NCBI GenBank assembly: GCA_903923395.1
Contig: CAIXXM010000169.1
Span: 1 to 38,215, forward strand
Direction of reading: 5' to 3'
Source: an uncultured Acidobacteriia bacterium
Lineage (GTDB): Bacteria > Acidobacteriota > Terriglobia > Bryobacterales > Bryobacteraceae
Length of the DNA: 38,215 bases
Under the pieces are notes generated by a model that was not told the DNA's origin, searched no databases, and saw nothing but the letters and a program-made list of their open reading frames with translations. Positions within the stretch are counted from its first letter, which is position 1, and every line of letters starts with the position of its first letter. Below are positions 3,312 to 29,917 of the stretch, piece after piece. The translations under genes were made by a program, and so were the position numbers.

Positions 3312-3680
3312 TTGGCATCAGACCTGCACATTTCGATGGTGATGAAACTGAACCAGACTGGAATGGAACTGGAAAACTACCTGACGTTTCTTTCCAGGCG
3401 CCAGACAGTAACAGCTTCAAACATCGCAAATGCCGACACGCCGGGATACAGGACAAAAGACATAGTCCAGCCCCAGTCCTTTGGCGATATCTTTCAACAT
3501 CAGTCCTTGAACGCTGTGGAGGTGAATACCGGCCGTACGCAGAATGACGGGAACAACGTTGATCTTGACCGCGAAGCCCGAATCCTGGCTGAAAACACAC
3601 TCCGCTTCAATATTGCTACTCAGATAGTCAAGGGTGATTTCAAACAGCTCAAGATGGCTATCGAGGAAGGGAAATCCTGA
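3312..3680 (+). CDS. flgB: Flagellar proximal rod protein FlgB
   Basis: One of the periplasmic proximal-rod subunits linking the MS ring to the distal rod. The diagnostic flagellar rod motif SNIANADTPGYRTKDI lies near the N-terminus and the C-terminal LRFNIATQIVKGDFKQLKMA helix fits FlgB. The frame is open from a TTG at 3288. The TTG at 3312 is preferred because AAGGA lies seven bases upstream, giving 122 residues. ATG codons at 3336 and 3342 are alternatives without a clear ribosome binding site. The stop codon overlaps the flgC ATG by one base (TGATG), indicating coupling. Confidence 0.9.
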   Translation: MASDLHISMVMKLNQTGMELENYLTFLSRRQTVTASNIANADTPGYRTKDIVQPQSFGDIFQHQSLNAVEVNTGRTQNDGNNVDLDREARILAENTLRFNIATQIVKGDFKQLKMAIEEGKS

Positions 3681-4114
3681 TGAACCTGTTCGGTGCCATT
3701 TCTATCGCATCCTCCGGAATGTCTGCTCAGCGCGCACGTGCGCAAGTCATAGCCGAAAACCTGGCCAATGCGGATACAACCAGAACGCCGGATGGAGGGC
3801 CATACAAGCGAAAAGATCTTGTCTTCGAGTCCACGGACATTCCCCAAACCTTCTCTGAAGTTTTTTCGCAAGCGGGCATGAACGCAACCGGCGTCTCCGT
3901 GTCGAACATCATCAGTGATGACCGTGACCCCGAACGCCGCTATCTTCCCGGACATCCCGATGCCGACAGCAACGGCTATGTCTCGTTTCCCCGCGTCAAC
4001 CCCGCCGAGGAAATGGTGGACCTGATGAGCACGTCCCGCAGCTATGACGCCAACGTCGCCGTAGTGTCGAGCCTGAAAGATATGATCTCGAAATCCGTCG
4101 ATCTCTTCCGTTAA
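3680..4114 (+). CDS. flgC: Flagellar proximal rod protein FlgC
   Basis: Second proximal-rod subunit, 144 residues, the usual length for FlgC. The N-terminal helix carries ISSGM-like and AENLANADTTRTPDGGPYKR motifs, where GGPYKRK is characteristic of FlgC. The central VSNIISDDRDPERRYLPGHPDADSNGYV segment is the FlgC-specific insertion, and the end (VDLMSTSRSYDANVAVVSS) is the conserved C-terminal rod helix. It starts at an ATG overlapping the flgB stop and is followed three bases later by fliE, the standard order flgB-flgC-fliE. Confidence 0.95.
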   Translation: MNLFGAISIASSGMSAQRARAQVIAENLANADTTRTPDGGPYKRKDLVFESTDIPQTFSEVFSQAGMNATGVSVSNIISDDRDPERRYLPGHPDADSNGYVSFPRVNPAEEMVDLMSTSRSYDANVAVVSSLKDMISKSVDLFR

Positions 4115-4117
4115 ACC

Positions 4118-4405
4118 ATGCCTGTTCAAATCCAACCTGGCCTGACCTATTCGGTACCCTCTCCGGCAACTGCTCAGCCGGGCAAGGGAGGTTTTGCCGC
4201 GGTAATGGATTCGGCCATCACTGCTGTAGAGGACACCTCCAATACCGCCCAGAAGGCAGTCCTGGACTTCATCTCAGGCGGAAGCCAGGACCTTCATACA
4301 GTAGCCCTCGCCTCACAGCGGGCTGAAGTTTCCATGGAACTGTTCCAGCAAGTCCGCAACAAACTTGTCTCGGCCTATCAGGAGATCATGCGCTCGCAAC
4401 TTTGA
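4118..4405 (+). CDS. fliE: Flagellar hook-basal body adaptor FliE
   Basis: Small rod-MS ring junction protein and early export substrate, 95 residues. The C-terminal part (DFISGGSQDLHTVALASQRA, then ELFQQVRNKLVSAYQEIMR) is the family signature, with conserved VRNK-V-AYQEIM. The N-terminus is short and poorly conserved, as is normal. It begins three bases after flgC and ends 13 bases before the fliF start chosen here. Family and context agree fully. Confidence 0.94.
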   Translation: MPVQIQPGLTYSVPSPATAQPGKGGFAAVMDSAITAVEDTSNTAQKAVLDFISGGSQDLHTVALASQRAEVSMELFQQVRNKLVSAYQEIMRSQL

Positions 4406-4418
4406 GAGCGCTGAAGCC

Positions 4419-6116
4419 ATGGAGCAGATCCTCACATTCTGGCGCAGCCTCAACCCCGTGCGGAGGGTCACGCTGATTGCGATCCCCCTCGCACTCGCCA
4501 TTGCCATCTTCGCGTTCGCCCGCTGGCGACATGACAGTGCCTTTCGCGTCCTCTATTCTTCGCTCGCTCCCGAGGACGCTGCTGCCATCACCCAGAAGCT
4601 TCGCGAGGGTGCGGTCGAGTTCCGGACAGATGAAACCGGCGGATCCATTCTCGTCCCGGCAGAGAGAATCGCGGAGGCACGCATGGCCCTTGCAGCGGCT
4701 GGTCTGCCGAAATCCGGGCGGATCGGCTTTGAGATCTTTGACCGCACCAACATTGGCGGAACAGATTTCGCAGAGCAGGTCAACTTTCGCCGTGCTCTGG
4801 AAGGGGAATTGGAGCGCACCCTCGCTACCCTGTCACAGATCGAGACGGCGCGCGTGCATATCACGGTCGCGAAAGATTCCGTCTTCCTGGAATCGAGACA
4901 ACCTGCCAAGGCGACGGTTGTCGTGCGCCTCAAGAGATCCAATAGGCTCTCGCAATCGACGATCACCGCGATCGGAAATCTTGTGTCAAGCGCCGTGGAA
5001 GGTCTCACACCCGACCGCGTCGCCGTCATTGACTCCAATGGGCAACTTCTTAGCCGGATTTCCCAATCCGAGGATTCCGAGGCGCAACTGGCGGAAGCAA
5101 ATCTCGATTACCGGCACCGGGTCGAAGGCGAACTGCTCCAAAAAGTGAACAATTCGCTTGGCCCCCTCCTCGGCGAGAGCCGCTTCCGTGCCGGCATCTC
5201 CGTCGACTGTGACTTCACCAGCGCGGAAGAGAACGCCGAAACGCTGGACCCAAACGCCTCGGTCGTTACCACTTCCCAAACGACGGAGGAATCGAGCGCT
5301 GCTGGAATCGCCAGCGGTGTGCCAGGTGCCGCGTCCAATCTACCCCGCCCGGTGAGCCGCCCCGCAACCGGCGCCACCGGACTCATCCGCCGCACCGAAA
5401 ATCTCGCCTACCAGACGAGTAAGACTGTCCGAAGAGTCATTACTCCCAAAGGCTCCATCCGCAAGATTTCTGCTGCTGTGATCATCGATCAGACAGCGCG
5501 CTGGGAGGGCGTCGGAACCAGGGCGAAACGGGTGCTCACACCGCCTCCTCCCGAGGTGCTGAAGGGAGTCAGGGATGTCGTCGCGGGGATTCTTGGCATC
5601 AACGAACAGCGTGGCGATCTGATTACCGTCGAGACACTGCCCTTTGAGACGACGCTCTCCGCCGAACCCCCGCCCGCGCCGAATTCCGGACCTGCCCCGG
5701 CGGCTGGCCTGACCCAGCGGGAACAACTCATCACCGGCATCGCCGCGGGCGTTCTTCTGCTCACCATCGCCGCCTTCTTCATGCTGCGCAAGAAGAAGCC
5801 CAAGCTGACCCCGGAAGACCTCGCCGCGGCCGCGTTGGAACCCGGACAACAACAGCCGGCAACCACCGCAATCACCGAGGGCTCCGCACAACCGGGTTCC
5901 GCCGGCACCAATGCGATCGAGACGACGATGACAGATGTTGAAGCGCAACAGGCGCAACTCGAAGCCGAAGCGATGAGCCGCATCAAACTTCCGCCGAATT
6001 CGAAAGCCTCCGAGGTGCTGCTGAAACACATTCGCGAAGCCATCACGAAAGACTCGCAGGGCGTGACGAATATTCTGCGATCGTGGGTCAGCGATATCGA
6101 AATCAGGAAGAGCTGA
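4419..6116 (+). CDS. fliF: Flagellar MS-ring protein FliF
   Basis: Inner-membrane ring on which rod, C-ring and export gate assemble, 565 residues. A first membrane helix lies near residues 17-32 (VTLIAIPLALAIAIFAFA), then the YscJ/FliF ring-building domains (FRVLYSSLAPEDAAAITQKL; TDFAEQVNFRRALEGELERT; ARVHITVAKDSVF). A second membrane helix follows (LITGIAAGVLLLTIAAFFML) with a basic stop RKKK. The C-terminal FliG-binding tail ends in TNILRSWVSDIE. The ATG at 4419 is chosen over 4365 because the longer version overlaps the end of fliE and its extra residues fit nothing in FliF. The Pro/Ala-rich stretch before the second helix is a variable linker in this family. Confidence 0.95.
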   Translation: MEQILTFWRSLNPVRRVTLIAIPLALAIAIFAFARWRHDSAFRVLYSSLAPEDAAAITQKLREGAVEFRTDETGGSILVPAERIAEARMALAAAGLPKSGRIGFEIFDRTNIGGTDFAEQVNFRRALEGELERTLATLSQIETARVHITVAKDSVFLESRQPAKATVVVRLKRSNRLSQSTITAIGNLVSSAVEGLTPDRVAVIDSNGQLLSRISQSEDSEAQLAEANLDYRHRVEGELLQKVNNSLGPLLGESRFRAGISVDCDFTSAEENAETLDPNASVVTTSQTTEESSAAGIASGVPGAASNLPRPVSRPATGATGLIRRTENLAYQTSKTVRRVITPKGSIRKISAAVIIDQTARWEGVGTRAKRVLTPPPPEVLKGVRDVVAGILGINEQRGDLITVETLPFETTLSAEPPPAPNSGPAPAAGLTQREQLITGIAAGVLLLTIAAFFMLRKKKPKLTPEDLAAAALEPGQQQPATTAITEGSAQPGSAGTNAIETTMTDVEAQQAQLEAEAMSRIKLPPNSKASEVLLKHIREAITKDSQGVTNILRSWVSDIEIRKS

Positions 6117-6119
6117 CCG

Positions 6120-7157
6120 ATGATCACCAACGCCGTCGCGCCGCCCCAGACAGAACAAATCAGCGGCCTCCGCAAAGCCGCGATGCTATTGACCCTGGTC
6201 GGTGAAAAGACGGGTGCCGAACTCCTGAAGCACTTTAGCGACGAAGAAGTGCAGTTGATCAGCCGTGAGATCGCACGTCTCGACCCGGTCTCTTCCGAAC
6301 AAGCCGAGATCATCCTGACGGAGTTCTACCAGATGACGGTGGCGCGGGACTTCGTCGTGCGCGGCGGCCTCGACTTCGCGAAAAAAATGCTGATTCAGGC
6401 CTTTGGACCCGACGTCGCGAAGCGCCTGATCGACCGCCTGGCCAAGTCCGTTGGCGGAGATTTTGCGAACCTCGACATCCTGCAGAAAGTAGACCCGCAA
6501 CAGCTCGCCAAGTTCATACACAACGAACACCCCCAGACCATCGCACTGATTCTTTCGCACTTGAACGCGTCACAGGCCGCGGCCCTGCTCATTTCCCTGC
6601 CGCCGGAATTGCGGTCTGACGTTTCTCTGCGAATGGCAAGCCTCGACCAAATCTCGCCGGAAATCATCTCGAAAATCGCCACGATTATCGGCCAGAAGCT
6701 CCAGGCCCTCGGCGAGTTCAGCCGCGAAAGCTATGGCGGCGTGCGCGCCGTCGCAGAAATGTTCAACCGGCTGGACTCGGGCTCCAGCAAAGAGATTCTG
6801 GAGGTCATCGAAACCCAGAACCCCAACCTCGTCGAAACAATCCGCCACCTCATGTTCGTCTTCGAAGACCTGCTGCTGATCGACGTAAATCAGATCAAAG
6901 AACTCATGGCGCGGATTGACCGCAAAGTTCTAACGACCGCCCTCAAAGGCACTTCCGAACAGCTTCGCGAACACTTTCTACAAACCATGTCGGGCCGTGC
7001 GCAGGAAATGCTCAAGGAAGACATGGAAGCCATGGGACCGATCCGCATCAAAGAGGTGGAAGCGGCCCAGCAACAGATCATCTCGCTCGTCCGTCAGCTC
7101 GAAAACGAGGGAGTCATCACGCTGAAGGGCTCCGTGGGCGAACAGTATGTTGTCTAA
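6120..7157 (+). CDS. fliG: Flagellar motor switch protein FliG
   Basis: C-ring protein that couples torque from the stator to the MS ring and takes part in direction switching, 345 residues as expected. The N-terminal domain binds the FliF tail (SGLRKAAMLLTLVGEKTGAE). The middle domain has the HPQTIALILSHL segment, a form of the conserved EHPQ motif. The C-terminal torque helix region includes VFEDLLLIDVNQIKELMARI, with charged residues expected to contact MotA. It begins three bases after fliF and its end overlaps fliH by 11 bases. Confidence 0.97.
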   Translation: MITNAVAPPQTEQISGLRKAAMLLTLVGEKTGAELLKHFSDEEVQLISREIARLDPVSSEQAEIILTEFYQMTVARDFVVRGGLDFAKKMLIQAFGPDVAKRLIDRLAKSVGGDFANLDILQKVDPQQLAKFIHNEHPQTIALILSHLNASQAAALLISLPPELRSDVSLRMASLDQISPEIISKIATIIGQKLQALGEFSRESYGGVRAVAEMFNRLDSGSSKEILEVIETQNPNLVETIRHLMFVFEDLLLIDVNQIKELMARIDRKVLTTALKGTSEQLREHFLQTMSGRAQEMLKEDMEAMGPIRIKEVEAAQQQIISLVRQLENEGVITLKGSVGEQYVV

Positions 7158-7827
7158 GGTGCTGAGCGGATTCCTCGCGGACTTCGCGGAACCACTCGTG
7201 ATCCCGTCGATTCAGCCAAACGACTTTCGTCCGCAGGAGGAAAAAGCAACACCAGCCTCCCCCGCGCCGGCAACCGCCCAGAACCATCCCGATAGATCCG
7301 CGGAAATTGCCGAACTCCAAGCCGAACTCGCGAGCTTGCGCGAGCAGACCGCACGCGCGGAACGCAATGCCTTCGCGCAGGGCGAACAACATGGACGCGG
7401 CCAGGCCAAGGCGGAAATCCAGCCCGTGATGGACCGCATGAACGCCTCCATTCAGGAAGTGCTCGACATGCGCCCGCAACTCCGCCGGGCCGCTGAGCAG
7501 GACCTCGTGCGACTCGCGCTGGCGATTGCCCGCCGAATCCTGCACCGCGAGTTGCACGTGGACCCCGCCGCCCTTTCCGGACTGGTCCGTTTTGCGTTTG
7601 ACCGCATCGGGCGCGCCGAGAAGTACCACATCCGTGTACACCCCAACATGGCGGAAGCAGTCGAGCAGTCCGTGCCGCGCCGCCACGACGCGTCGATCCA
7701 AGTGGAGGCAGATCCTGCCTGCGCACTCGGAACACTCATCATCCGAACCGGCGGCGGAACGATCGACGCCTCCGTCGAAAACCAGCTCGACGAAATCTCG
7801 AAAGGACTCACGGACCGAATGTCATGA
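7147..7827 (+). CDS. fliH: Flagellar export ATPase regulator FliH
   Basis: Stator-like regulator that ties the FliI hexamer to the C-ring, 226 residues. The N-terminal third is variable and Pro/Ala-rich. A long amphipathic coiled coil (about 50-110) has Ala/Gly-rich spacing, including FAQGEQHGRGQAKAEIQ, typical of the FliH GxxxG region. The C-terminal domain (about 115-220; DLVRLALAIARRILHRELHV and SVENQLDEISKGL) matches the FliH/YscL fold. It starts inside the end of fliG and its TGA overlaps the fliI ATG (ATGA), so translational coupling is likely. Confidence 0.9.
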   Translation: MLSKVLSGFLADFAEPLVIPSIQPNDFRPQEEKATPASPAPATAQNHPDRSAEIAELQAELASLREQTARAERNAFAQGEQHGRGQAKAEIQPVMDRMNASIQEVLDMRPQLRRAAEQDLVRLALAIARRILHRELHVDPAALSGLVRFAFDRIGRAEKYHIRVHPNMAEAVEQSVPRRHDASIQVEADPACALGTLIIRTGGGTIDASVENQLDEISKGLTDRMS

Positions 7828-9142
7828 CCGCGTCCATTGACTTGAACCGTTACATCTCACTTGTGGAACACATGGACCCCGTTGTTCTCGAGGGCGAAGT
7901 CGTCGAACTGGTAGGCCTGTTGATTGAGTCCAACGGACCTGCAGCAGCGATTGGCGATTTTTGCGAAGTTCGAACCCGTGATGGACATTCGATCCGCACG
8001 CAGGTCGTGGGTTTCCGCGATGGACGGGTGCTCTCCATGCCGCTCGAAGAAACAGGAGGCTTGCGCTTGGGCGACCGCATCCTGTGCCGCGGCGGGCAAT
8101 CCAACGTCGAGGTGTCGCCGGATCTGTTGGGGCGCGTGGTGGATGGCTTCGGAAAGGTGATGGACGGGTTGCCGGCACCGCACATGACGGACCGTGTGCC
8201 ACTCTATGGAACTCCGCCGAACCCCCTCACCCGCGCGCATATCGTGGAGAAACTGAACACTGGAATACGCGTGATTGATGGCATGCTTCCCTGCGGCAAG
8301 GGCCAGCGCATCGGGATCTTCGGCGGCAGCGGAGTTGGAAAAAGTACGCTGCTGGGGGTAATGTCGAAGTCGAGTTCCGCCGATGTAAATGTCATCGCCA
8401 TGATTGGCGAAAGAAATCGCGAAGTGCGAGCGTTTCTGGAGCATGAGCTTGGGCCGGAGGGCATGAAGAAGTCTGTGGTGGTGGTGGCCACTTCTGACAG
8501 GCCAGCCCCTCTGCGCGTGCGGGCCTGCTTTGTGGCATTGGCGATTGCGGAGTATTTCAAGGACCAGGGGAAGAGTGTATTGCTTGTGATGGATTCGATC
8601 ACCCGTCTGGCGATGGCGCAGCGGGAGATCGGGCTGGCGGCTGGTGAACCGCCCAGCCAGAAGGGCTACACGCCTTCAGTCTTCAGTCTGTTGCCGAAGA
8701 TCTGCGAACGCGCAGGAAATTTTGATTCGGGTTCGATCACTGGTTTCTTCACCGTGCTCGTCGAGGGCGATGATTTCAATGAGCCCATCTGCGATGCGGT
8801 ACGGTCGATACTCGATGGACACATTACGCTTTCGCGGCAGTTGGGCGCGGCTGGGCATTATCCGGCAATTTCCGTCTTGGATTCGGTCAGCCGCTTGCAG
8901 AGTCAATTGTTTACCAGCCGCGAAGCGGAAAGCGCGGCAAAGATCCGGCAAGCGCTAGCCCTGTACCGGGATTCAGAAGATCTGATTCATCTGGGGGCCT
9001 ATGTCTCGGGGTCCAATCCACAACTGGACTCCATCATCCGGTCGCGGGGCGAGTTGATGAAGTTTCTGCGGCAGCCTCCTGAGGATGTGTCGAGTCCGGA
9101 AGAGACGATTCGTCAGATGGAAGCCGTGGCCGGGATGGTGCC

Positions 9143-9146
<4 letters not shown>
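7824..9146 (+). CDS. fliI: Flagellum-specific export ATPase FliI
   Basis: ATPase that unfolds and feeds substrates to the flagellar type III secretion gate, 440 residues. The Walker A loop GGSGVGKST is at about residues 167-175. The Walker B strand is in SVLLVMDSITRLAMAQREIG, followed by AAGEPPSQKGYTPSVFSLLP, which distinguishes FliI/SctN from F1 beta subunits. An N-terminal beta-barrel and a C-terminal helical domain flank the core. ATGA overlap with fliH and GTGA overlap with fliJ place all three in one translational unit, matching their physical complex. Confidence 0.97.
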
Positions 9147-11794: not shown

Positions 11795-14506
11795 TCAAGG
11801 CCGCCCCGCCAGCACCCGCATCAAATAAATGTCCCCCAGTGCCAAGTCCTCACTCGAATACAAGATCGAGTCCCCGGCCGGCGACGCCGTCAAATTCCGC
11901 GGACCGTGCAGTACCCGCCTCGGCGGCGTTCCTGGAAACTTCCTGATCCGGCCATTCGGCAGATTCAGCTCTGCAAAGTGTCCGGACTGCCCCTCCTCCA
12001 GAAAGAACAGCCGGCCACCCCGCAGATCCCAAGTTCGATACAGCGCATGCTCCGTCCCTGGCACCAGCGCCCCCGGACCACCCCCAGCCCGCCGCTCCCA
12101 GATCCCGTCGCCCTGCTCACGCCGCGCATACAAAAAACGTCCCGCCGGACTCTCGCGCAAGTCAAACATCTCCTCCGCAAATACTTCCACCGGTTTCCCT
12201 CCCGCTACAGGAGTCTTCACAACCTGCCCCGCGCCGCCCCGCAAACAATAAAGGAACCGGCCATCCGCCGACCAGCCCGGCACCGTGTACTCCGCATCAT
12301 CCGGCGTCACCCGCCGGACTGTTCCGCCGCGTGAAGGAATCACCAGAATATTTGTGAACCGTGTTCGATGATTCGCATCCACCGTCCCGTCAAACGCGAT
12401 CCATTCCCCGTCGGGCGACCACACCGCACTCCCCAGATCGCCCCCCAGCGACGTGATCTGCCGTGCCCTTGTCCCATCCGGTTCGCACAAGTACAATTCG
12501 TAAACTCCCGTGCGATTCGAGCGAAACACCACGTGCCGCCCGTCCGGAGAATATTGGGGCTCACTATCCTCCGCGCTCGAACCCTGAAAGCGCGTCTCCT
12601 TGCCCGTAGCCGGATCCAGCCGCCAGATGTTCACGTCGACAAGCGCCCGGTTGAATACGAAGGTCTGTCCGTCCGGAGCGTTGCGAAAGTTGCGAAACTC
12701 TCCCTCTGCGATTCGTACCGGATGAGCGCCGGACCCATCCATGTTGACCTGCCACAAGGCTCCGGAGCCTGCATACAAAGCGGTCCGGGAATCCCCCAGC
12801 CAGGCCTCACCCTCAATGGTGCCGGGCGCCGCGTAGCAGGTCTCGTGTTGCGGTGCCGTCAGTTCGAGTGCGCAAAGCCAGGCGGAGTCAGCCCTCTTGC
12901 GGCGGAACAGCAGGCGCTTCCGGTCCGGCGAAACAACAGGTGAGTCTTCGCCAAAGCCTGGCTCCCTGGTCAAAAAAGTCTTGCTGCCATCCGCCAGGTT
13001 GATCCGCACCAGAGACCGGCCCCACGGCACCAAATCGCTTGCGATGAGCGAAGCGCCGTCCGGCCAGAACTGTACACCGTAAAATCCCTCGTGGTCTGCT
13101 GTGGAACCCGCCAGGCGCGCGGGACCATCTACCGGAGCCACCATGATCCAGGTTTCGCTGCCATCCCTCGCGCGGCTCTGCCAGGCGATGGTGTGCCCGT
13201 CCGGCGACCATACGGGGCTGTACTTCGGACGGGAGTCATTTGTTAAACGCCGCAGGTCGCCCCCCGCGAGGTTCTGCATATAAACCTCGTCGTGATCGCT
13301 GTCATCCCCGCTCCAGACGAACAGCAGCTTGCGGCCGTCTGGCGAAATGGCCGGTTCGCGTTCAATGCCGTCATAGCTCGTAATCGCCACTGGACTGCTG
13401 AGACGGACCGACGCGGGCGCGGGCACCGGCCAGTATCGGACCACCAGGAATGTCACAAGGGCAGCCATCACCGCGGCCGCAAGCCACCAAGTGGCCGAAC
13501 GGGCACTCCGGCGCGCGGCAATGCTCTCCAGCCGGGCTGCAACTGCAGCCGCCGTGGGCCGTGCAACCGGTTTCGTACTCAACATCTCAAGCAGCAGCGC
13601 GTCGAACTTCTCCGGCAGCCCGCGGCGCAATGCCGAAGGAGGCCGCAAGTCGCCCAGCGCCACCGCGCGCGTCAGTGTCAGAGTCGAAGTGCCTGCCCCT
13701 GCCAGAGCGAATGGATGCGTCCCGGTGGCGAGTTCATAGAGGACGATTCCCAATGAAAAGATGTCCGTGGCGGGCGTGAGCGAGTGGCCGAGCCCCTGCT
13801 CCGGGGACATGTAACGCAAGGTGCCCATGGGCCGCGCATTGCCCCAGGCGCTGTCTTCCGCCGCCAGGCCGAAATCCAGCACCTTCACATACCCATCGGC
13901 CCGCACAATCAGGTTCTCCGGCTTAATGTCCCTGTGGATGATGCCCCGCGCGTGCGTAGCCGCCAGTGCCTCGGCAATGCGCTGTCCCCAGAGCGCCACC
14001 TGCGGAAGCTCATGCGTCCGGCCAACCAGCTTGCGCATCGGCTCGCCCTCGACCAGCTCCATCGCAATGCCCACGGTGTCTGTGCTGCGGATGACCTCGA
14101 AGATTGTCACGATGCCAGGGTGATTCAGCGCCGAAGCCGCCCGCGCTTCCCGCGTTAACGCCTCAATCGCATTCACCGCGCCCAAACGCCGCGATGAGAT
14201 GCACTTGATCGCTACGCGCCGCCCCAAATCCGGGTCCAAGGCTTCATAGACCTCCCCCATACCACCGCGGCCCACCGGTGCCAGCAGCTGGAACCGCCCC
14301 AGCCACTGCCCCACGCGTTCCCACTCGGGGACCGCAACCTCTTCTTCATCGAGAGGCGTATCCGCTGTCTCCAGCAGTTCCCGCACCTTGGCGCGCAGTT
14401 CTTCCTCGGGCAACGCTTTGCGGATGAATTCTTCACGCGACCCCACCGGAAGCTCGCCCGCCTCCTCATAGACTGCCCAGACGCGCTTCCGTTGGTCTTG
14501 CGTCAT
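11795..14506 (-). CDS. Transmembrane Ser/Thr protein kinase with C-terminal PD40/TolB-like propeller
   Basis: Eukaryotic-type kinase of 903 residues from the ATG at 14506. The frame is open 54 codons further, but that extension runs back into the upstream sigma-factor gene. The P-loop GRGGMGEVYEA is near 79-89, catalytic Lys in VAIK at about 101, HRDIKPEN at 191-198, DFG at 211-213 and MSPEQ at 233-237. One membrane helix follows (about 339-358). The remaining 540 residues are repeated propeller blades with SPDGR, SPDGH, SPDGE and SADGR motifs, predicted extracytoplasmic. The domain order fits a sensor that reports envelope signals by phosphorylation. The ECF-like sigma gene 13 bases upstream suggests a two-gene signalling unit, a common acidobacterial arrangement. 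Substrates cannot be told from sequence. Confidence 0.93.
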   Translation of the reverse strand: MTQDQRKRVWAVYEEAGELPVGSREEFIRKALPEEELRAKVRELLETADTPLDEEEVAVPEWERVGQWLGRFQLLAPVGRGGMGEVYEALDPDLGRRVAIKCISSRRLGAVNAIEALTREARAASALNHPGIVTIFEVIRSTDTVGIAMELVEGEPMRKLVGRTHELPQVALWGQRIAEALAATHARGIIHRDIKPENLIVRADGYVKVLDFGLAAEDSAWGNARPMGTLRYMSPEQGLGHSLTPATDIFSLGIVLYELATGTHPFALAGAGTSTLTLTRAVALGDLRPPSALRRGLPEKFDALLLEMLSTKPVARPTAAAVAARLESIAARRSARSATWWLAAAVMAALVTFLVVRYWPVPAPASVRLSSPVAITSYDGIEREPAISPDGRKLLFVWSGDDSDHDEVYMQNLAGGDLRRLTNDSRPKYSPVWSPDGHTIAWQSRARDGSETWIMVAPVDGPARLAGSTADHEGFYGVQFWPDGASLIASDLVPWGRSLVRINLADGSKTFLTREPGFGEDSPVVSPDRKRLLFRRKRADSAWLCALELTAPQHETCYAAPGTIEGEAWLGDSRTALYAGSGALWQVNMDGSGAHPVRIAEGEFRNFRNAPDGQTFVFNRALVDVNIWRLDPATGKETRFQGSSAEDSEPQYSPDGRHVVFRSNRTGVYELYLCEPDGTRARQITSLGGDLGSAVWSPDGEWIAFDGTVDANHRTRFTNILVIPSRGGTVRRVTPDDAEYTVPGWSADGRFLYCLRGGAGQVVKTPVAGGKPVEVFAEEMFDLRESPAGRFLYARREQGDGIWERRAGGGPGALVPGTEHALYRTWDLRGGRLFFLEEGQSGHFAELNLPNGRIRKFPGTPPRRVLHGPRNLTASPAGDSILYSSEDLALGDIYLMRVLAGRP

Positions 14507-14519
14507 GCGTTGCCCGGTG

Positions 14520-15119
14520 TCATGCTTTGCCTGGAACCGCAGCCCGCCGCCCCGGTCCGAACTCTTCCGCCATCCAATCCCGCGCGAAGTTCCACCACCT
14601 GGCCACACTGCGGGGCGAGGCACCCATGCGAGCCGCGATCTCGTCTCCTGTGAGGCCTTCGAAGACACGAAGCTCCACCACGGTCCTCAACCTCGGACTG
14701 ATCTCACTCAGACGGTCCAGCGCACTTTCAATCTCACGCAGGGACTCACCCCCCGCTTCCGTTCCGTGAAAACTCTCTTCGAAGCTCTCAAATTCCGCGC
14801 GCTTCGCGAGGGGCCGGGCATGGTGAGCCAGCAGGCGCTGCATCAGGTAGGCCGAAAAATGCAGAAAGGAGTGGCGCTCTTCTTCTTCACTTTCCGCACC
14901 CTCGCGCAGTTCCCGCACCTTGCGCAATTCCAGGTACAGTTCATTCACCAGCGCCGTGGGTTGCCAAGTGTGGCGCGAGTCTTCGCCCTGCATCCGCGAC
15001 CGGGCAATCTTCTTTAATTGCGGATAGAGCGCTTCCACCAGTTGCCCCGCTGCCGCCGCGTCTCCCCCTCGAAACCGGGCCATCAGATCTCGAACAGATG
15101 CTGTGGGTGATCCATTCAT
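14520..15119 (-). CDS. ECF-type RNA polymerase sigma factor
   Basis: Sigma-70 family protein of 199 residues. A sigma-2-like region (DLMARFRGGDAAAAGQLVEA then LYPQLKKIARSRM) is followed by QPTALVNELYLELRKV, typical of the acidobacterial and planctomycete ECF group often found beside Ser/Thr kinases. Sigma-4 is a clear helix-turn-helix (PRLRTVVELRVFEGLTGDEI, then AARMGASPRSVARWW). It lies directly upstream of the kinase gene and diverges from the dockerin-protein gene. The ATG at 15119 lacks a close ribosome binding site, and an in-frame shift of the start is possible. Promoter targets are unknown; the palindrome at 15156-15173 is a plausible nearby control site. Confidence 0.9.
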   Translation of the reverse strand: MNGSPTASVRDLMARFRGGDAAAAGQLVEALYPQLKKIARSRMQGEDSRHTWQPTALVNELYLELRKVRELREGAESEEEERHSFLHFSAYLMQRLLAHHARPLAKRAEFESFEESFHGTEAGGESLREIESALDRLSEISPRLRTVVELRVFEGLTGDEIAARMGASPRSVARWWNFARDWMAEEFGPGRRAAVPGKA

Positions 15120-15248: not shown

Positions 15249-18200
15249 ATGATCAACCGCAAATCAAAGCCACGCAGAATGCGAAAGACCACCGGTGCCC
15301 TTTGGATGCGCCGCGCGCGTTTCTTCCAGCCGATCGCGCTCATTCTTGCCATCATGATGCTGCCGGCCGACTGGATTCCGCAGCGTCTCGGCATGACCGC
15401 CCAGGCCGCGACGTTTACCCTCCAGCCCGGGTGCGCTTTCCTCGGAGGAAACAGCATCATCCAACAGGTTTGCGGACCCAGTGCCAATTCCGTCCCGAAC
15501 TCCGCCATCATCGGCGCCGTCCAGCAATGGGAACAGGATTCCGTCACCCAGTTCCTGCAGTTGAATCAGCTACCCTCCAGCTCTGCAGACGTCGCCTTCG
15601 TCTACCAAAACGCACGTGCTGACCTCCGGGCTGCCATCCGCGCTTTTATGGAGGTCCGCATGTGGTCGATGGCCACCGAAGACCCCTCACAACTCTCCGG
15701 CAACGAAGCCACCGTCCTTAGCTGGTTCCAGTCCCGCTGGACCTACCACGAGCGGAATCTCTACGACCACGCCATCGCTGACTACAACAGCTGGCTCAAG
15801 AATCACTGCACCTGGAAGCCCGATCCCGACGTCGCCAAAGCGCTCAAACTGAACTATATTGCCTGCGTCGGCTCCATTCTGACCAAGAACGCCCCAAACA
15901 CCGATTACTACCTTCTGGCTGCCCGGAAAAGCGAATACGAAACGCTTCTCGCAAACCTTCCGCCACTGGCCGGATCACAGGTTTCCACCAGTTCCCTGAG
16001 CACAACAGCTGCCCGCGCAGCCAATGCCGCGGGCCGGTCCACCCGCACGGAATCCACAAGCTCCGGAACGCAGGCCAGCACGCCGGGTCCCAGCGTATCT
16101 GGCTTCACCATGTACAACGTGAGCAATCAGTTATTTGATGCAGAGGTTGGCAGCGCCAGCGGCGCAGCTGGACTACTAATCGGCATCCCTGCGCTCATAT
16201 CTCAAGTCCCCGCTTTCAGAAACTCCATCTTCCCCAACCGCAGAGCCGGAGAGACCGTACGACGGTATGTCAGATCAGCGGAGAAGGTGCAGTCTGACTC
16301 AGAGCAAGTCGCAAAGGACGCGGCGGCGGAGGGCGATGAAGAGTTAGCCACTGACAGCACCAAGCTGAGTAGCAACGTTGAAGCTGAGTTCACCGCCGAA
16401 GCAGAGGTCGAAGCGGAAACCACCCTCGAAGCCGGCGCCGACGGTGCCGCCGAGACCTTCGGCATCAGCATGATCGTCGCAGTAATCGCACTCGCCATCA
16501 CAGTCGCCGTCACCTTCGCCATTGACGAAGCTAACGCGATCGATGTGGTCAATTCCCAGTTGCAGCAGGCCTCGGGCCAGGCCTTCCCCGGCGGTTTCGT
16601 TGATATGGCAGCCCTGCTTTCCACCAAGGATGGCTTCTATAAGTTCGGCGTCGTCTGGACCGAAGCCACTTACCCCGACGTTCCTTCCACCAGCACGCTC
16701 CCCTCGCCCAGCAACTCAGTCAAGTTCCTACACACCGGCGCCGGTCAGTCACAGCCAGTGGTCGGAGCAACTTACAAAGACTGGTCCGGCAACACCTGGA
16801 ACATGGGTTACTACAACGGCTACTTTTTGAATAATGGTGCGAAGAACGTCACCGTCAACAGTCAAACCACCCCAATCACTTATGATTCCATCAACCCGCT
16901 GATCCGGTTTCGGGATTGGAACAACCAGAAATACACCGCCACGTTGTTCGGAACCAACTTCATTGTCACCAAACTCACCCCCGCCAGCACCGATACCGCC
17001 TGTGAGCCAGACCCCTCCACAGGCATCAGCAGCACCACGAATATCAGTACCTGCGCCACCCAGGTCGTCACGCAACTCCAACTGCTCGATGGCGGCGGGA
17101 ACCAGGTCACGGTACAAATCGGCACCGCACCGGTCTTGAACTTCCCCTCGGGAGTCACCCTTTCGAGCAGCGCGGACAGCCTTGTTGCCATCCCAGCCAC
17201 CGGCCTGCCCGTTCCCGCCGTCACCGGGGACACCAGTGTGATCTCGCTTGACTTTTTTAAGTTGGCCACACCCCCTGCCGGCATCAGCTTCACGCCGGGT
17301 ACAGGTACGGGAACCCTCCACTGCTGTTTGAATGGCTCCACGTCCACCATGGGCCCTGGCAAATATTCAATGAATGTCACCGCAACGAACATCGTCGGCA
17401 CCACCACGGGTTCTTTCGAGTTCAATGTCGGTGATCCTTCACAGCCGCTCAGCATCACCCAGGTCAGCGGCCCCTCCGGCAACGTGTATTTCGGCCAGAG
17501 CCAGAAATGGGTCTGGAAAGCCTCCGGCCCCGGACAGCGCTATACCTTCTACACCAACGTTTCCATCCCGGGCATGACCTTCTGGGATAACGGCAACGGC
17601 ACGGCGCAATTCACCGGAACCCCTACCATCGGCACCAAAGTCTGCAGCAGCCTGAACTACTGCGGTGTCTGGGTCACCAACGCCTTGGACCACGCGGAGA
17701 CACCTGATTCGAACCACACCTTCACGCCCTTCCTCCCCAATTACCTCTACGCCCCGGCGGCAACGCTTTCGCAGAACATGATCACCTTTCCCATTGGGAA
17801 GACCACCTCATTCGTCATCGGCGCGAACGCCATCACCCCCGTCTCGTTCTCCACGCCCTGCAGCGGGCTGCCCAACTGGTTCAGCGTTACGGATAACGGG
17901 AACGGCACCGCCACGGTAACCGGCTCCCCCGGCCAGGGCTCGGCCACCTCCCTGCCTTTTGTGATCTTCCCGACCGCGCTGGGTTCACAGCCGGTCTCGA
18001 ATCCTTGCGCGACCCCGAACTTTACCGCCGGCGTTGATAAAACCCTCAATGTTTTGAGCGCCGCCAGCACCACCTTCCAATCCGGCTACCAGGGAAGCTT
18101 TACCATCCAGAGCAATGGCTACGGCGGCGGCACCGTCGTGCTGGATTCACCGCTTCCTGCTGGCCTTCAGTTCGTCCAAAACAACGCCGCCGCACAGGGC

Positions 18201-18821
18201 ACCATCAGCGGCAAGCCCAACACAGGCACCGGCGGCACTTACCTGATCCGCTATCACCTGACGCCCGGCACCGGCCAATATGGCGGCAACTATTCCCCCG
18301 CGCCGCTCGTGCTGACCATCAATGAATACCCCAACATGCTCAGTCTGCCAGCCTCGGTCTATATGATGGCGGGCGTGCCCCAGACCTTCGTTGTCAGGCC
18401 CGGCGGCTTCCCCACACTCGGGGATATGAAGGTCACTCTAGATGGCGGCTTCCCTTCGGTGCCTCCCGGCCTCAAAGGCAGCGGCGAAAGTGAAGCGACC
18501 ACCTCCCTCGGCACTTACACCCTCTCCGGCACCGTACCCGCCTCGGCGGCTGGCAACTCCTACCTGCTGCAGTTCGGGGCCTCTAATTCGCTCGCGAATA
18601 CCACCGGTTCCACTAACGTCACCATCGTGCCGCCCGGCGACGTGAACCACGACATGGTCACCAACTGCACCGATTACAGCATCGTCAAGTCTCTGCTCAA
18701 CGTGACTTATACCTCCACCCGCTACAACGCTGCCGCCGACATCAACAGCGACGGCGTCATCAACATTCTGGACCTCGCGTTCGTCTCTTCCGGACTGCCC
18801 AAAGGAACCGTCTGCCACTAA
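15249..18821 (+). CDS. Large secreted/membrane protein with Ig-like domains and C-terminal type I dockerin
   Basis: A protein of 1190 residues. A basic N-terminus and hydrophobic stretch (about 24-40), with an AQAA-type cleavage site near 51-54, make a long signal peptide. Residues 55-230 are a helix-rich domain that I do not recognise. Hydrophobic segments occur near 303-322 and, strongly, at 404-425 (SMIVAVIALAITVAVTFAI), separated by an acidic Ala/Glu-rich stretch. From about 630 come putative Ig/cadherin-like units (He_PIG type), such as GPGKYSMNVTATNIVGTTTG and LPAGLQF...GTISGKP. The last 61 residues form a complete dockerin with two calcium loops, DVNHDMVTNCTD (1131-1142) and DINSDGVINILD (1164-1175), each with D-x-N-x-D...D ligands. 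ATG 15249 has GTGAGG upstream. The next gene encodes a cohesin-like protein, so the two probably bind each other (inference). Confidence 0.85.
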   Translation: MINRKSKPRRMRKTTGALWMRRARFFQPIALILAIMMLPADWIPQRLGMTAQAATFTLQPGCAFLGGNSIIQQVCGPSANSVPNSAIIGAVQQWEQDSVTQFLQLNQLPSSSADVAFVYQNARADLRAAIRAFMEVRMWSMATEDPSQLSGNEATVLSWFQSRWTYHERNLYDHAIADYNSWLKNHCTWKPDPDVAKALKLNYIACVGSILTKNAPNTDYYLLAARKSEYETLLANLPPLAGSQVSTSSLSTTAARAANAAGRSTRTESTSSGTQASTPGPSVSGFTMYNVSNQLFDAEVGSASGAAGLLIGIPALISQVPAFRNSIFPNRRAGETVRRYVRSAEKVQSDSEQVAKDAAAEGDEELATDSTKLSSNVEAEFTAEAEVEAETTLEAGADGAAETFGISMIVAVIALAITVAVTFAIDEANAIDVVNSQLQQASGQAFPGGFVDMAALLSTKDGFYKFGVVWTEATYPDVPSTSTLPSPSNSVKFLHTGAGQSQPVVGATYKDWSGNTWNMGYYNGYFLNNGAKNVTVNSQTTPITYDSINPLIRFRDWNNQKYTATLFGTNFIVTKLTPASTDTACEPDPSTGISSTTNISTCATQVVTQLQLLDGGGNQVTVQIGTAPVLNFPSGVTLSSSADSLVAIPATGLPVPAVTGDTSVISLDFFKLATPPAGISFTPGTGTGTLHCCLNGSTSTMGPGKYSMNVTATNIVGTTTGSFEFNVGDPSQPLSITQVSGPSGNVYFGQSQKWVWKASGPGQRYTFYTNVSIPGMTFWDNGNGTAQFTGTPTIGTKVCSSLNYCGVWVTNALDHAETPDSNHTFTPFLPNYLYAPAATLSQNMITFPIGKTTSFVIGANAITPVSFSTPCSGLPNWFSVTDNGNGTATVTGSPGQGSATSLPFVIFPTALGSQPVSNPCATPNFTAGVDKTLNVLSAASTTFQSGYQGSFTIQSNGYGGGTVVLDSPLPAGLQFVQNNAAAQGTISGKPNTGTGGTYLIRYHLTPGTGQYGGNYSPAPLVLTINEYPNMLSLPASVYMMAGVPQTFVVRPGGFPTLGDMKVTLDGGFPSVPPGLKGSGESEATTSLGTYTLSGTVPASAAGNSYLLQFGASNSLANTTGSTNVTIVPPGDVNHDMVTNCTDYSIVKSLLNVTYTSTRYNAAADINSDGVINILDLAFVSSGLPKGTVCH

Positions 18822-18830
18822 GGACTCGCC

Positions 18831-19424
18831 ATGAAAAATACTTTGCTCACCTCCCTCATCCTGCTCCTCGGCACGGCCGCCTCCGCTGCCGCCGGCACGG
18901 TCTTCAGTTTCATCAACGTCTCGTCCGTCAACACAGGCGACAACTTCACCGTCGATGTCGTCGCGGATACCACGTCCCTATTTGCCTTTAATTTCGACGT
19001 GACGTTTGACCCCACGCTCCTTAATGCCACCAACGTGACCGGACTGGGCGACTTCGTCGACAATGCAGGCTACCTCGGCATCGACAACAGCACAGACCCG
19101 TCGGACTCCAGTGGGGGCACCATTTCCTTCGTCTACAGCATCGCGACTTCCGGAAATGCGTCCAGCGGGACGGCGATTCCGTTGGCGGAAATTGACTTTA
19201 CCGCTGTCTCCACGGGAGTCAGTGCGTTGAACCTGGCCAACTTCATCGTCGCCCAATACTCCGGCGATCTGGCGGGGGACCCCAACGTCAGCGTCACTCC
19301 GGGTTCCGTCACCATCACCGACAGCACCCCGCCAGCTCCGGCTCCTGAACCCACGCCGACTGCGTTGGTCGCCGCCGCGACCGTATTGGTTTGGGGGCGA
19401 AGCCGGAAGGCGCGCCGTCCATAA
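18831..19424 (+). CDS. Secreted cohesin-like protein with PEP-CTERM sorting signal
   Basis: A protein of 197 residues: signal peptide (1-20, ending ASAAAG), one cohesin-like beta-sandwich (about 22-163), and a PEP-CTERM tail. The sandwich shows the family pattern: TGDNFTVDVVADTT, FAFNFDVTFDPTLLNATNVT, GTISFVYSIA, PLAEIDFTAVSTG and VSVTPGSVTI. The tail has PEP at 172-174, a hydrophobic run (178-189) and RSRKARR at the end. This should be recognised by an exosortase and processed at the membrane. It starts nine bases after the dockerin gene, with AAGGA overlapping that gene's stop. Known cohesins bind dockerins in cellulosomes, where scaffoldins carry several copies. Here there is a single cohesin, so a surface anchor for the neighbouring protein is the simplest idea. 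Loose similarity to other PEP-CTERM beta-sandwich proteins is the alternative. Confidence 0.82.
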   Translation: MKNTLLTSLILLLGTAASAAAGTVFSFINVSSVNTGDNFTVDVVADTTSLFAFNFDVTFDPTLLNATNVTGLGDFVDNAGYLGIDNSTDPSDSSGGTISFVYSIATSGNASSGTAIPLAEIDFTAVSTGVSALNLANFIVAQYSGDLAGDPNVSVTPGSVTITDSTPPAPAPEPTPTALVAAATVLVWGRSRKARRP

Positions 19425-20262: not shown

Positions 20263-23151
20263 GTGCAATCCATTCGAAAAACCGGCCTCGCGCTGGCTTT
20301 GGCGTTCTGCCTTGGCTCAACCGCGCTGGCCCAGAAGCTGACGACGCCGAAAGAAGTTCTCGGTTTCGATATCGGCGATGACTACATGATGGCCAGCTAC
20401 ACACAGCTGACCACCCACTGGAAGAAGCTTGCCGCGGAATCGCCGCGCATGAAACTGGTGGATATGGGCCCTACGGCTGAAGGCCGCCGCCAGTACATGG
20501 CGATCCTCACTTCGCCGGAAAACATGAAGAAGCTCGATCGCTATAAAGAGATCAACCAGAAGCTGGCGCACGCCGAAGGCCTCACCGAAGCCGACGCCCG
20601 CAAACTCGCCGCCGAAGGCAAGGCCATCATCTGGATCGACGGCGGTCTCCATGCCTCGGAAACCGTGGGCTCCCAGCAACTCATGCAGTTCGTGTGGGAC
20701 ATGGTCAGCAAGAATGACGCCGAGACATTGCGGCTTTTGAATGACTGCATCATCCTTGCCGTGCAGGCGAACCCCGATGGTCAGGAGATTGTGGCCGATT
20801 GGTACATGCGCGAGAAAGAGCCCACCAAGCGTTCGCTGAATGGTCTGCCGCGGCTGTATGCCAAGTACATCGGCCATGACGATAACCGCGACTTCTACAT
20901 GTCTAACATGCCGGAAACCACGAACATGAACAAGTACATGTTCCAGGAATGGTTCCCGGAGATTGTGTACAACCACCACCAGACGGGCCCCGCCGGCGCG
21001 GTCATCTTCATGCCGCCGTTCCGAGACCCTTTCAATTACACGCTCGATCCCCTCGTGCCGCTTGGCATTGAAGCGGTCGGCACCGCGATGCACAGCCGTC
21101 TGGTCGCAGAAGGCAAGGGCGGCTCCGCCATGCGCTCCGGCGCGAATTACTCCACCTGGTGGAATGGCGGCCTGCGCACGGTCACCTACTTCCACAACAT
21201 GATTGGCCTCCTCACCGAAATCATCGGCGGACCGAATCCCACCCCCATCGCACTGGTCCCGGAAAAGCAACTGCCCCAGGGCGATTGGCCCTTCCCCGTC
21301 ACCCCGCAGGTTTGGCATTACAAGCAGTCCATCGAATATGAGATGTCGAACAACCGCGCCGTGCTGGATATCGCGTCGCGCTACCGCGAAACGTTCCTCT
21401 TCAACCTGTGGCGCATGGGCATGAATTCCATCGAACACGGCAGCGCCGACCATTGGACGGTCACCCCGAAGCGCATTGAAGCCCTCAAGGCCGCAGCCGC
21501 ACCTCCCGCCGGTGCTCCCGCAGCAACAGGCGGAGGCGGTGGACGCCGTGGTGGCGGTGGTGCCGCTGCAGCAACTGCGGCCCAGGCCCCGGCCGGTGCC
21601 CCCGCGGGCGGTGACGCCCCCATGTCCGCCAGCATGGGCGGCCTGCGTGCCAACACCGTGCCCGGCGCCCTCTACAACACCGTGCTGCATGACCCCAAGT
21701 TCCGCGATGCGCGCGCCTACATCATCCCTTCCACGCAGGATGACTTTGCCACCGCCGCGAAGTTCGTCAACACCCTGATCAAGAACGGCATCAGCATCGA
21801 ACGCGCCAAGAGCGAATTCACCGTGAACGGGAAGAGCTACCCCGCCGGTTCCTACATCATCGACTGCGCTCAGGCCTTCCGGCCCCACATCCTCGATATG
21901 TTCGAACCGCAGGATCACCCCAATGACTTCCGTTACCCCGGTGGCCCACCGATTCCCCCTTACGACATCACCGGCTGGACCCTTGCCTTCCAGATGGGCG
22001 TCAAGTTTGACCGCATCGTGGATCTGCCCGCCAACGCCAAGGTCACCGGACCCTTCGAAAAGATCACCAAGCTGCTCGATATGCCCGAAGGCAAGATGAG
22101 CGGCCCGGCCAACCCCGCAGGCTATCTCATCAGCCACCGTGAAAACAACTCCTTCATCCTCGCCAACCGCCTGCTCAAGGTCGGCGCGTCGGTCTACTGG
22201 CTGAAGAAGGAAGAGATGGGCCTGGGTACCGGCACCATGTGGGTTCCCTCCGGCAACGGTGTGGCAGCCATCATGACCACCGCGGCCAAGGAACTCGGCG
22301 TCAACATCCACGCCGTGGCAGCCAAGCCCACCGGTGAAGCCATGCAGTTGAAGCCCATCCGCATCGGGTTGTTCGATCAGTACGGCGGCTCCATGCCCTC
22401 CGGCTGGACGCGCTGGATCTTCGAACAGTTCGAATTCCCGTATGAACTCGTCTATCCGAAGATGCTCGATGCCGGCGATCTGCGCGCGAAGTATGACGTG
22501 CTCGTCTTCCCCGATGGCGCCATCCGCCGTGGTGCTGGTGGACGCGGCGGCGGTGGCGGCTTCGGCGGAGCACCTGAAAACGTGCCTGCCGAATACCAGG
22601 GCTGGCTCGGTCGTATCTCCGAAGATGTTACCGTTCCCCAGTTGAAGAAGTTCACGGATTCCGGCGGGTCCATCGTCACCATCGGCAGTTCCACGTCCGT
22701 GGCGGATCTCTTCGGCATTCCCGTGAAGGATTACCTGACCGAAAAGGGCCCTGATGGCAAGGACCGCCACCTGGCGCAGGAGAAATTCTACATTCCCGGC
22801 GCGCTGTTGAAGGTGAATATCGACAACACCAACCCGCTGGCTTACGGGATGCCGAAGCAGGTGGATGTGGTGTACGACAACAGCCCTGTCTTCAAGCTGG
22901 GCCCCGATGCGGCACAGAAGAAGACCGGTTCCGTGGCCTGGTTCTCCGGTCCGGAAGTGCTGGATTCCGGCTGGGCATGGGGGCAGCAATACCTCGATGG
23001 CGGTACGGCGATTGCGGATGCGAAGGTAGGCGAAGGGCATGTCGTCATGCTCGGACCCGAGGTCGCCTTCCGCGCCCAGCCGCACGCCACGTTCAAGCTG
23101 CTCTTCAACGGCCTCTTCGTCGGTACCGCGACCGATAAGAAGCTGGACTAA
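20263..23151 (+). CDS. Secreted M14-family zinc carboxypeptidase (large form)
   Basis: Predicted extracytoplasmic metallopeptidase of 962 residues. The GTG at 20263 follows CAGGAG by eight bases. A signal peptide (TGLALALAFCLGSTALAQ) precedes the M14 domain. The zinc site is HASE (His130, Glu133) with a third His in YNHHQTG (about 238), supported by ANPDGQE (169-174) and HDDNRD (205-210). A Gly/Ala/Pro-rich insert (about 410-450) and another Gly-rich stretch (about 750-765) interrupt the later part, which contains a Rossmann-like region (IRIGLFDQYGGSMPSGW, VLVFPDG, FTDSGGSIVTIGSS) resembling a ThuA or glutamine-amidotransferase-like fold. Substrate specificity is not readable. A strong terminator follows, so it is probably monocistronic. 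Confidence 0.9.
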   Translation: MQSIRKTGLALALAFCLGSTALAQKLTTPKEVLGFDIGDDYMMASYTQLTTHWKKLAAESPRMKLVDMGPTAEGRRQYMAILTSPENMKKLDRYKEINQKLAHAEGLTEADARKLAAEGKAIIWIDGGLHASETVGSQQLMQFVWDMVSKNDAETLRLLNDCIILAVQANPDGQEIVADWYMREKEPTKRSLNGLPRLYAKYIGHDDNRDFYMSNMPETTNMNKYMFQEWFPEIVYNHHQTGPAGAVIFMPPFRDPFNYTLDPLVPLGIEAVGTAMHSRLVAEGKGGSAMRSGANYSTWWNGGLRTVTYFHNMIGLLTEIIGGPNPTPIALVPEKQLPQGDWPFPVTPQVWHYKQSIEYEMSNNRAVLDIASRYRETFLFNLWRMGMNSIEHGSADHWTVTPKRIEALKAAAAPPAGAPAATGGGGGRRGGGGAAAATAAQAPAGAPAGGDAPMSASMGGLRANTVPGALYNTVLHDPKFRDARAYIIPSTQDDFATAAKFVNTLIKNGISIERAKSEFTVNGKSYPAGSYIIDCAQAFRPHILDMFEPQDHPNDFRYPGGPPIPPYDITGWTLAFQMGVKFDRIVDLPANAKVTGPFEKITKLLDMPEGKMSGPANPAGYLISHRENNSFILANRLLKVGASVYWLKKEEMGLGTGTMWVPSGNGVAAIMTTAAKELGVNIHAVAAKPTGEAMQLKPIRIGLFDQYGGSMPSGWTRWIFEQFEFPYELVYPKMLDAGDLRAKYDVLVFPDGAIRRGAGGRGGGGGFGGAPENVPAEYQGWLGRISEDVTVPQLKKFTDSGGSIVTIGSSTSVADLFGIPVKDYLTEKGPDGKDRHLAQEKFYIPGALLKVNIDNTNPLAYGMPKQVDVVYDNSPVFKLGPDAAQKKTGSVAWFSGPEVLDSGWAWGQQYLDGGTAIADAKVGEGHVVMLGPEVAFRAQPHATFKLLFNGLFVGTATDKKLD

Positions 23152-29461: not shown

Positions 29462-29917
29462 ATGAAGACCCTTGTGTTGTCTCTGATTTTGGTGGGCGGA
29501 GTCTTCGCCCAGAGCGCCGGGATGCGTTCGGTTTACGTGTTCCCGATGGCCGGAGGACTCGATCAGTACCTGGCGAGCTGGATCGCAAAGGAACATGTAT
29601 TGCAGGTCACCACAGACCCGCAGGCGGCCGATCTGGTACTGACGGACCAGATCAATGACAAGCTGGCGAAAAAGCTGCTGGAGCTGCATCCGGTGGCACC
29701 TCCCGAGGCAGACGACGAGGACACGGACAAAGCCTCCGGCCAGCGCGGCATGGAGTTCCACGGCGGCCGCGGCAAGGGTACGGTCTTCCTGGTGGATGCC
29801 AAGAGCAGGACAGTGGTTTGGTCGGAAGCGCGGAAGCCGGTGGAAGCTACTGCGGTGAAGCTGAGCCTGGAAGCGAAGCGGATTGTGAAGGGGATGCAGG
29901 GAGCGGCGCTGAAGTAG
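29462..29917 (+). CDS. Small secreted protein of unknown function, opposite strand within the glycan cluster
   Basis: A protein of 151 residues with signal peptide KTLVLSLILVGGVFAQSAG. The mature domain mixes helix and strand: SVYVFPMAGGLDQYLASWIA, VLQVTTDPQAADLVLTDQIN, an acidic linker (PPEADDEDTDKA), then GTVFLVDAKSRTVVWSEARK. The 'd...AD..l...' and 'vflvDaksr.vvWs' patterns recall small secreted proteins often seen in acidobacteria, with no function known to me. It diverges from the DPM1-like gene with only 19 bases between starts. Its last 71 bases overlap the 3' end of the converging GT fusion gene. Confidence 0.75.
   Translation: MKTLVLSLILVGGVFAQSAGMRSVYVFPMAGGLDQYLASWIAKEHVLQVTTDPQAADLVLTDQINDKLAKKLLELHPVAPPEADDEDTDKASGQRGMEFHGGRGKGTVFLVDAKSRTVVWSEARKPVEATAVKLSLEAKRIVKGMQGAALK

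Follow-up and report, generated by a model that had tools for sequence, protein, structure and literature searches.

A dockerin gene and a cohesin gene at one locus

Two co-directional genes lie 9 bp apart in the window, by which we mean the whole stretch of 38,215 nucleotides that was analysed. Gene 1 (15249..18821, plus strand) encodes a cargo protein of 1190 aa, predicted to be secreted, with a dockerin at its C-terminus, and gene 2 (18831..19424, plus strand) encodes a protein of 197 aa with a cohesin domain and a PEP-CTERM-like tail; a signal-peptide-like start was recognised by eye in both proteins. The type I dockerin domain (18633..18788, plus strand) scored 47 bits in the Dockerin_1 search of the genome and 41.7 bits in the Pfam protein scan (PF00404, aa 1129-1180), against a cut-off of 22.9. 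Its two calcium loops, DVNHDMVTNCTD and DINSDGVINILD, keep the residues at what we take to be the calcium-ligand positions of dockerin loops, and the loop Asp columns D8, D12, D19, D41 and D52 are invariant in 29/29 domains of the subfamily described below. Two Cys codons, one in loop 1 (aa 1140, 18666..18668, plus strand) and one beside the C-terminus (aa 1189, 18813..18815, plus strand), fall in columns that are invariant among 35 aligned proteins and 29 domains, and we propose that the Cys at aa 1189 may be the disulfide partner of that at aa 1140. The loop-1 Cys aligns with the Ser of a Ser-Thr pair in the cellulosomal dockerin 4fl4, so that an invariant Cys stands here where the cellulosomal domain has Ser. 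The Ser-Thr position presumably contacts the cohesin, and our guess is that a Cys-Cys disulfide would close one of two cohesin-binding sites.

The cohesin domain of gene 2 (18915..19316, plus strand) was above the cut-off both in the genome profile search (28.7 bits) and in the Pfam protein scan (PF00963, aa 29-162, 28.0 bits against 24.1). Its last 26 residues (19344..19421, plus strand) show by eye the layout of a sorting tail, with PEP, a hydrophobic stretch and RSRKARRP at the extreme C-terminus. Neither the Pfam nor the NCBIfam PEP-CTERM model (PF07589, TIGR02595) reports this tail, and a Pfam PEP-CTERM match is absent also from an orthologue with 79% identity to gene 2; we read it as PEP-CTERM because the tail is conserved across the family of partner proteins, in which P-E is invariant. 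An AAGGA ribosome-binding-like site (18820..18824, plus strand) overlaps the TAA stop of gene 1, 6 bases ahead of the gene 2 ATG, and the same holds in the orthologue, making translational coupling of the two genes possible. AlphaFold2 was run on the pair as a single read-through chain from dockerin to cohesin, with the in-frame TAA given as Gly, for the window and its relative at L024, and returned a pLDDT of 27.8 from an alignment of only 2 sequences.

A sequence-only reading of this DNA had described a dockerin with both calcium loops complete at the end of a 1190-residue protein, a gap of nine bases and then a single cohesin domain with a signal peptide. These features are borne out, the gap exactly (18821/18831). 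Of the profiles it named, PF00963 and PF00404 matched above cut-off and TIGR02595 found nothing on gene 2, so that the PEP-CTERM tail stands as a feature visible by eye and conserved in the family, below all model thresholds in the window copy.

The assembly has 6.15 Mb in 169 contigs, the window being contig C169, and the one named relative found with gene 1 is an uncultured Acidobacteriia MAG (L024, 93% identity in the top segment), for which reason we take the genome and its phylum to be Acidobacteriota. The genome has 1 Dockerin_1 match and 4 cohesin matches in 4 separate ORFs (E<=0.001 for both). Besides gene 2, one cohesin (C106:38420-38728; L001, L305) forms the C-terminal end of an 837-aa ORF that by eye is a secretin-like protein, and cohesin ORFs of similar length were found in many of the order's genomes, some of which lack a dockerin match. 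The other two are weak cohesin-like domains in tandem PEP-CTERM proteins, also on C106 (L305: 6851-7462 and 7830-8480, minus strand), near which no dockerin match was found in the 19 kb fetched. An exosortase, on which the sequence-only reading depended, is indeed encoded in the genome (PF09721, 237 bits), and among the matches listed 60 of 77 PEP-CTERM matches lie above the Pfam cut-off. The earlier statement that cellulase and scaffoldin are missing holds for the 16 window ORFs that were scanned with Pfam, to which the search for cellulases was confined. If a cellulosome is taken to be a multi-cohesin scaffoldin with several dockerin-tailed enzymes acting on plant polysaccharides, the genome, with its 1 dockerin match and 4 cohesin matches in separate ORFs, does not fit that description. 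Elsewhere in the window are genes for flagellin, FliD, FliF, FliG and a flagellar/T3SS-type ATPase (72-9146), an M14 zinc carboxypeptidase-like gene (20263-23151, plus strand) with a long antisense ORF that Pfam does not match and that seems spurious, and polysaccharide genes for a glycosyltransferase and a Wzt-type ABC transporter ATPase (29847-35082, minus strand).

A dockerin subfamily with a cohesin gene beside it

The sequence-only reading had called for a survey of conserved adjacency, which we carried out in the 257 genomes of the order, where Dockerin_1 was found in 79 genomes and Cohesin in 206. We examined 101 of the 113 dockerin matches, i.e., the window and 100 fetched loci; the 12 left out were two on G086:C1, four more repeats in G205:C99, a second match in G128, and those at G131:C54, G187:C323, G186:C1, G100:C115 and G102:C757. 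The G086:C1 contig (L223), which we did not count, carries two partial dockerin and cohesin copies, inverted on one 8-kb contig, and is perhaps an assembly artefact. Cohesins were searched for with a model seeded from the order-wide Cohesin matches and iterated on the dockerin loci (35 domain hits in round one, 41 in round four), which finally matched in 40 of the 101 loci. A downstream partner was defined as a separate co-directional cohesin ORF at most 200 bp after the dockerin gene. The 25 dockerins with such a partner share a signature that defines subfamily 1, namely a Cys in loop 1 (CxD) and another just behind the domain; the second Cys is at or beside the C-terminus in 24 of them, while the protein at L125 runs on for ~300 residues. 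With a profile built from 29 members of the subfamily, the 101 loci fell into two groups: 35 scored at least 76.6 bits, and the highest of the others scored 37.7. L168 was not counted; it is a truncated match that has both Cys and scores 35.2 bits. The split recurred at class level (399 genomes; at least 83.9 vs at most 43.9 bits), and at phylum level (396 genomes) there was one intermediate, G590 (68.2 bits), in which the dockerin lies inside a long protein and a PEP-CTERM-like ORF upstream reaches only 15 bits as a partner.

The 35 subfamily-1 loci are spread over 30 genomes, and 34 were testable, since the contig of L093 ends 94 bp past the stop codon. More than one pair is present in G009 (two), G181 (three) and G098 (two). 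A cohesin ORF is directly adjacent to the dockerin gene in 29 of the 34, in five gene arrangements: downstream in 25 (including L100, where the contig ends within the partner), upstream in L105, divergent in L088, convergent in L085 and within one merged ORF in L106. In L106 (G070) one reading frame continues from the cohesin and its PEP-CTERM-like segment through another signal-like segment and the cargo to the dockerin; this may be a gene fusion or an assembly error. At L102 the cohesin is 837 bp downstream with another ORF between, and at L112 (over 20 kb), L124, L126 and L129 no cohesin was found nearby. In the last three of these the dockerin is internal, with a C-terminal extension of ~130 aa. 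Genomes with cohesins have one to seven of them, and by our own estimate adjacency by chance is far below 1%. A downstream cohesin was found by HMMER in 25/34 loci of subfamily 1 vs 1/66 of the others (L128; Fisher p=5e-15), a contrast that understates the others because the partners of subfamily 2 lie under HMMER detection. Outside the window's family, the class search yielded two subfamily members, G452 and G467. The first, a one-contig genome from another family that was held out, has, directly after the dockerin, an ORF that the cohesin model matches and that carries a PEP tail, and in the second the contig ends ~300 bp past the dockerin. A reciprocal check by eye among the matches listed, with G000 uncounted, showed that 9 of 11 cohesin ORFs of 180-240 aa adjoin a subfamily-1 dockerin; of the other two, L303 starts at a contig end and L304 resembles a broken secretin end.

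To compare the partner proteins we aligned 28 of them, comprising 24 of the 25 downstream ones (without the truncated L100) and those of L085, L088, L102 and L105, and omitting the merged L106. Because our cohesin model was iterated on the same loci, Pfam Cohesin serves as an independent check, and it reports 22 of the 28 (E<=0.1). Their tails have P-E in 28/28 and PEP in 27/28; at the same threshold Pfam PEP-CTERM reports 22 of the 28, the window's own not among them, and TIGR02595 reports 18. An exosortase was present in 30 of 33 genomes. The search was negative in G079, which has a pair, and in G036 and G467, and G030, which also has a pair, gave a weak match of 40 bits. Dockerin distances and cohesin distances were correlated over 27 pairs (Pearson 0.69, with 0 of 20,000 permutations as high) and over 18 less redundant pairs (0.50, p=0.0001), a correlation that shared descent alone could explain. 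Nearest neighbours were concordant in 12 of the 27 pairs, eight of those being four close-orthologue pairs.

Other dockerin subfamilies, anchors and cargo

Two further dockerin subfamilies were assigned by eye. By a simple rule, a secreted ORF with a PEP tail follows the dockerin gene in 6/9 loci of subfamily 2, 8/9 of the third subfamily and 23/35 of subfamily 1, and in 0/48 of the remaining loci of the 101. After removal of signal and tail, six aligned partner cores of subfamily 2 scored 96.3% against the cohesin profile (hhalign), and between 5.5 and 85.1% as single sequences. Eleven PEP-CTERM sequences of the window genome, used as single-sequence controls, each stayed below 1% (two of them are from overlapping loci, and L018 was dropped). 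In sequence, the PEP-CTERM partners of subfamily 2 look like cohesins. The partner core of the third subfamily, trimmed in the same way, scored 13.4%; a whole-protein comparison of this partner (98.4%) was set aside, as that score takes in signal peptide and tail. At the loci of this GDFNDDG type (L111, L115, L121, L131, L139, L150, L159, L175, L202, L212) the dockerin is followed by a secreted PEP-CTERM protein in which no cohesin could be detected, and the receptor of the third subfamily is possibly a PEP-CTERM protein of another type. In three further loci (L128, L141 and L160, in G005, G006 and G017) a long open frame of ~970-4150 aa ends with both a cohesin and a dockerin, and behind it come small ORFs that, judged mostly by eye, are cohesin-like and secreted and have no PEP tail.

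We fetched 60 loci from the rest of the phylum, 59 from the phylum search (best hits and a hand-picked spread) and one from the class search. Fourteen of them, from eight families, have a cohesin ORF directly after or overlapping the dockerin gene whose protein begins, by eye, with a lipoprotein-like signal ending in Cys; for L289 and L294 an ordinary start codon before this signal was not seen. At some of these loci the start codon of the cohesin gene and the stop of the dockerin gene share 1-4 bases. In the other 46 loci the model used found no directly following cohesin, and some of these have cohesins within the same ORF or kilobases upstream. Sixteen aligned lipoprotein-like proteins share one invariant Cys; Pfam Cohesin reports 11 of the 16 (E<=0.1), and L286 and L299 are without a cohesin-model hit. 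The recurrence of an anchor-type signal in another chemical form is in our view the strongest argument that the cohesin acts as an anchor.

The cargo varies. In a scan of 35 proteins (34 of the subfamily and L168, the incomplete L095 being left out) He_PIG domains were found in 13 and PKD domains in 5, with rarer matches, in one or two proteins each, to FGE-sulfatase with a caspase-like domain, sortilin, MG2 and InlB-type repeats. By tblastn, parts of the window cargo were found in 27 loci (21 without refetched copies), and at L122 the similarity falls outside the dockerin ORF. Divergent from gene 1 is a gene for an ECF sigma factor (14520..15119, minus strand; profile match), and beside it one for a Ser/Thr kinase with PD40 beta-propeller repeats (11795..14668, minus strand; profile match). 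A similar ECF gene is near 13 of the 35 subfamily loci, the window included, vs 0 of 66 others, a similar kinase near 15/35 vs 2/66, and both together near 12/35. The ECF sigma factor had matches also in three phylum loci (L283, L287, L288). The two genes may be controlled by the ECF sigma factor and the kinase.

A proposed docking cassette and its alternatives

The pair in the window is real and is one instance of a recurrent cassette. We consider it probable that the cassette serves docking, with a small anchored cohesin holding a large dockerin-tailed cargo. The gene 1 protein would be secreted with the dockerin at its end, and gene 2 would probably be translated right behind it to give a secreted product with hardly anything in it but a single cohesin and its anchor. 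Through its PEP-CTERM tail this cohesin would be sorted by the exosortase to the envelope or to an exopolysaccharide matrix, and there it would hold the gene 1 protein by calcium-dependent cohesin-dockerin binding. A large cargo would thus not have to carry an anchor, and the two could be exchanged independently. The sequence-only proposal that a PEP-CTERM cohesin anchors the dockerin protein is thereby supported, physical docking and exosortase processing being the steps that we infer.

A different account, which we regard as unlikely, is that the two proteins are co-regulated members of an exopolysaccharide/PEP-CTERM regulon without direct binding, the cohesin-like domain being that of a beta-sandwich matrix protein. 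The 60 PEP-CTERM motifs above cut-off among the matches listed for the genome and the polysaccharide transport and glycosyltransferase genes within the window fit such a regulon, as does the joint occurrence of similar ECF and kinase genes near 12 of the 35 loci of the subfamily; at L124 and L129, which are among these 12, there is no cohesin. The neighbour, however, is specifically a cohesin and not just any PEP-CTERM protein, it stays while a lipoprotein-like signal replaces the tail, and the adjacency outlasts gene reordering. Even less probable, in our judgement, is that the dockerin has its receptor in another cohesin, the C-terminal one of the secretin-like protein at C106:38420, to which it might bind, e.g., in the course of secretion. 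Such a protein, secretin-like by eye, is encoded in the genome, but cohesins are far more widespread in the order than dockerins (206 and 79 of 257 genomes), cohesin ORFs of ~820-860 aa occur in genomes that lack a dockerin match (e.g., G033, G157, G084, G168, G028, G111), and it is the adjacent cohesin that tracks the dockerin locus by locus. The least credible account is that the dockerin just stabilises gene 1 as a cap folded by calcium and that the cohesin-like protein plays an unrelated part. It fits the 65 of 66 dockerins outside the subfamily for which HMMER shows no separate cohesin ORF in the 200 bp behind them, but it leaves the adjacency in 29 of 34 loci and the different anchor types elsewhere unexplained.

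Returning to the docking cassette, its two domain families are those of the cellulosomal type I pairs of Clostridium and relatives. Searched against solved structures, the dockerin profile had its best match in a cellulosomal dockerin (2y3n_B, 56.9 bits) and the cohesin profile in a scaffoldin cohesin (3l8q_A, 53.3 bits over two domains). Unlike in the cellulosome, there is one cohesin per protein and a single dockerin match in the genome, and the cohesin has a PEP-CTERM or lipoprotein-like anchor. The NagJ/hyaluronidase pair (PDB 2ozn), both members of which were among the structure-profile matches, likewise consists of secreted non-cellulosomal proteins. There the cohesin and dockerin modules are, as we assume, parts of enzymes, whereas here the cohesin is a small anchored protein encoded beside its presumed ligand. 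With the PEP-CTERM/exosortase system the window cassette has in common the type of tail and the exosortase. A term search of the paper that founded this system (Haft 2006, PMC1569441) did not find the words cohesin or dockerin, and among open-licence full texts we found none in which PEP-CTERM is mentioned alongside cohesin or dockerin and none on Acidobacteria with PEP-CTERM and exosortase. In the sections consulted, a review (PMC5244752) states that the function of cohesins and dockerins outside the cellulosome is not known and reports many non-cellulosomal ones in methanotrophic archaea, whose genomes also have exosortase/archaeosortase domains; those sections do not describe pairwise adjacency or an anchored-cohesin cassette such as the present one. 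The constituent domains are already known, and adjacent cohesin-dockerin pairs may have been mentioned earlier in the literature.

A broader proposal, to which we give an even chance, is that a modular system of surface display has spread through the phylum. A gene for a dockerin-tailed cargo would be coupled to one for its private single-cohesin anchor, and the cargo, the subfamily of the dockerin and the chemistry of the anchor (lipid or exosortase tail) would each have been swapped independently. In the window's subfamily a disulfide linking loop 1 to the C-terminus would render the dockerin single-mode, and the receptor of the third subfamily may be a PEP-CTERM protein not recognisable as a cohesin. 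The survey provides ~30 natural candidate ligand-receptor pairs (the 29 loci and G452). Because the two members of each are encoded side by side, the function of non-cellulosomal cohesins and dockerins becomes directly testable, by binding and by partner exchange, and the pairs are also candidates for orthogonal docking in display on Gram-negative cells. If true, the docking reading would give one family of PEP-CTERM proteins a concrete job, and the recurrence of the cassette with different cargo and a different kind of anchor suggests a general way of holding large secreted proteins on the cell.
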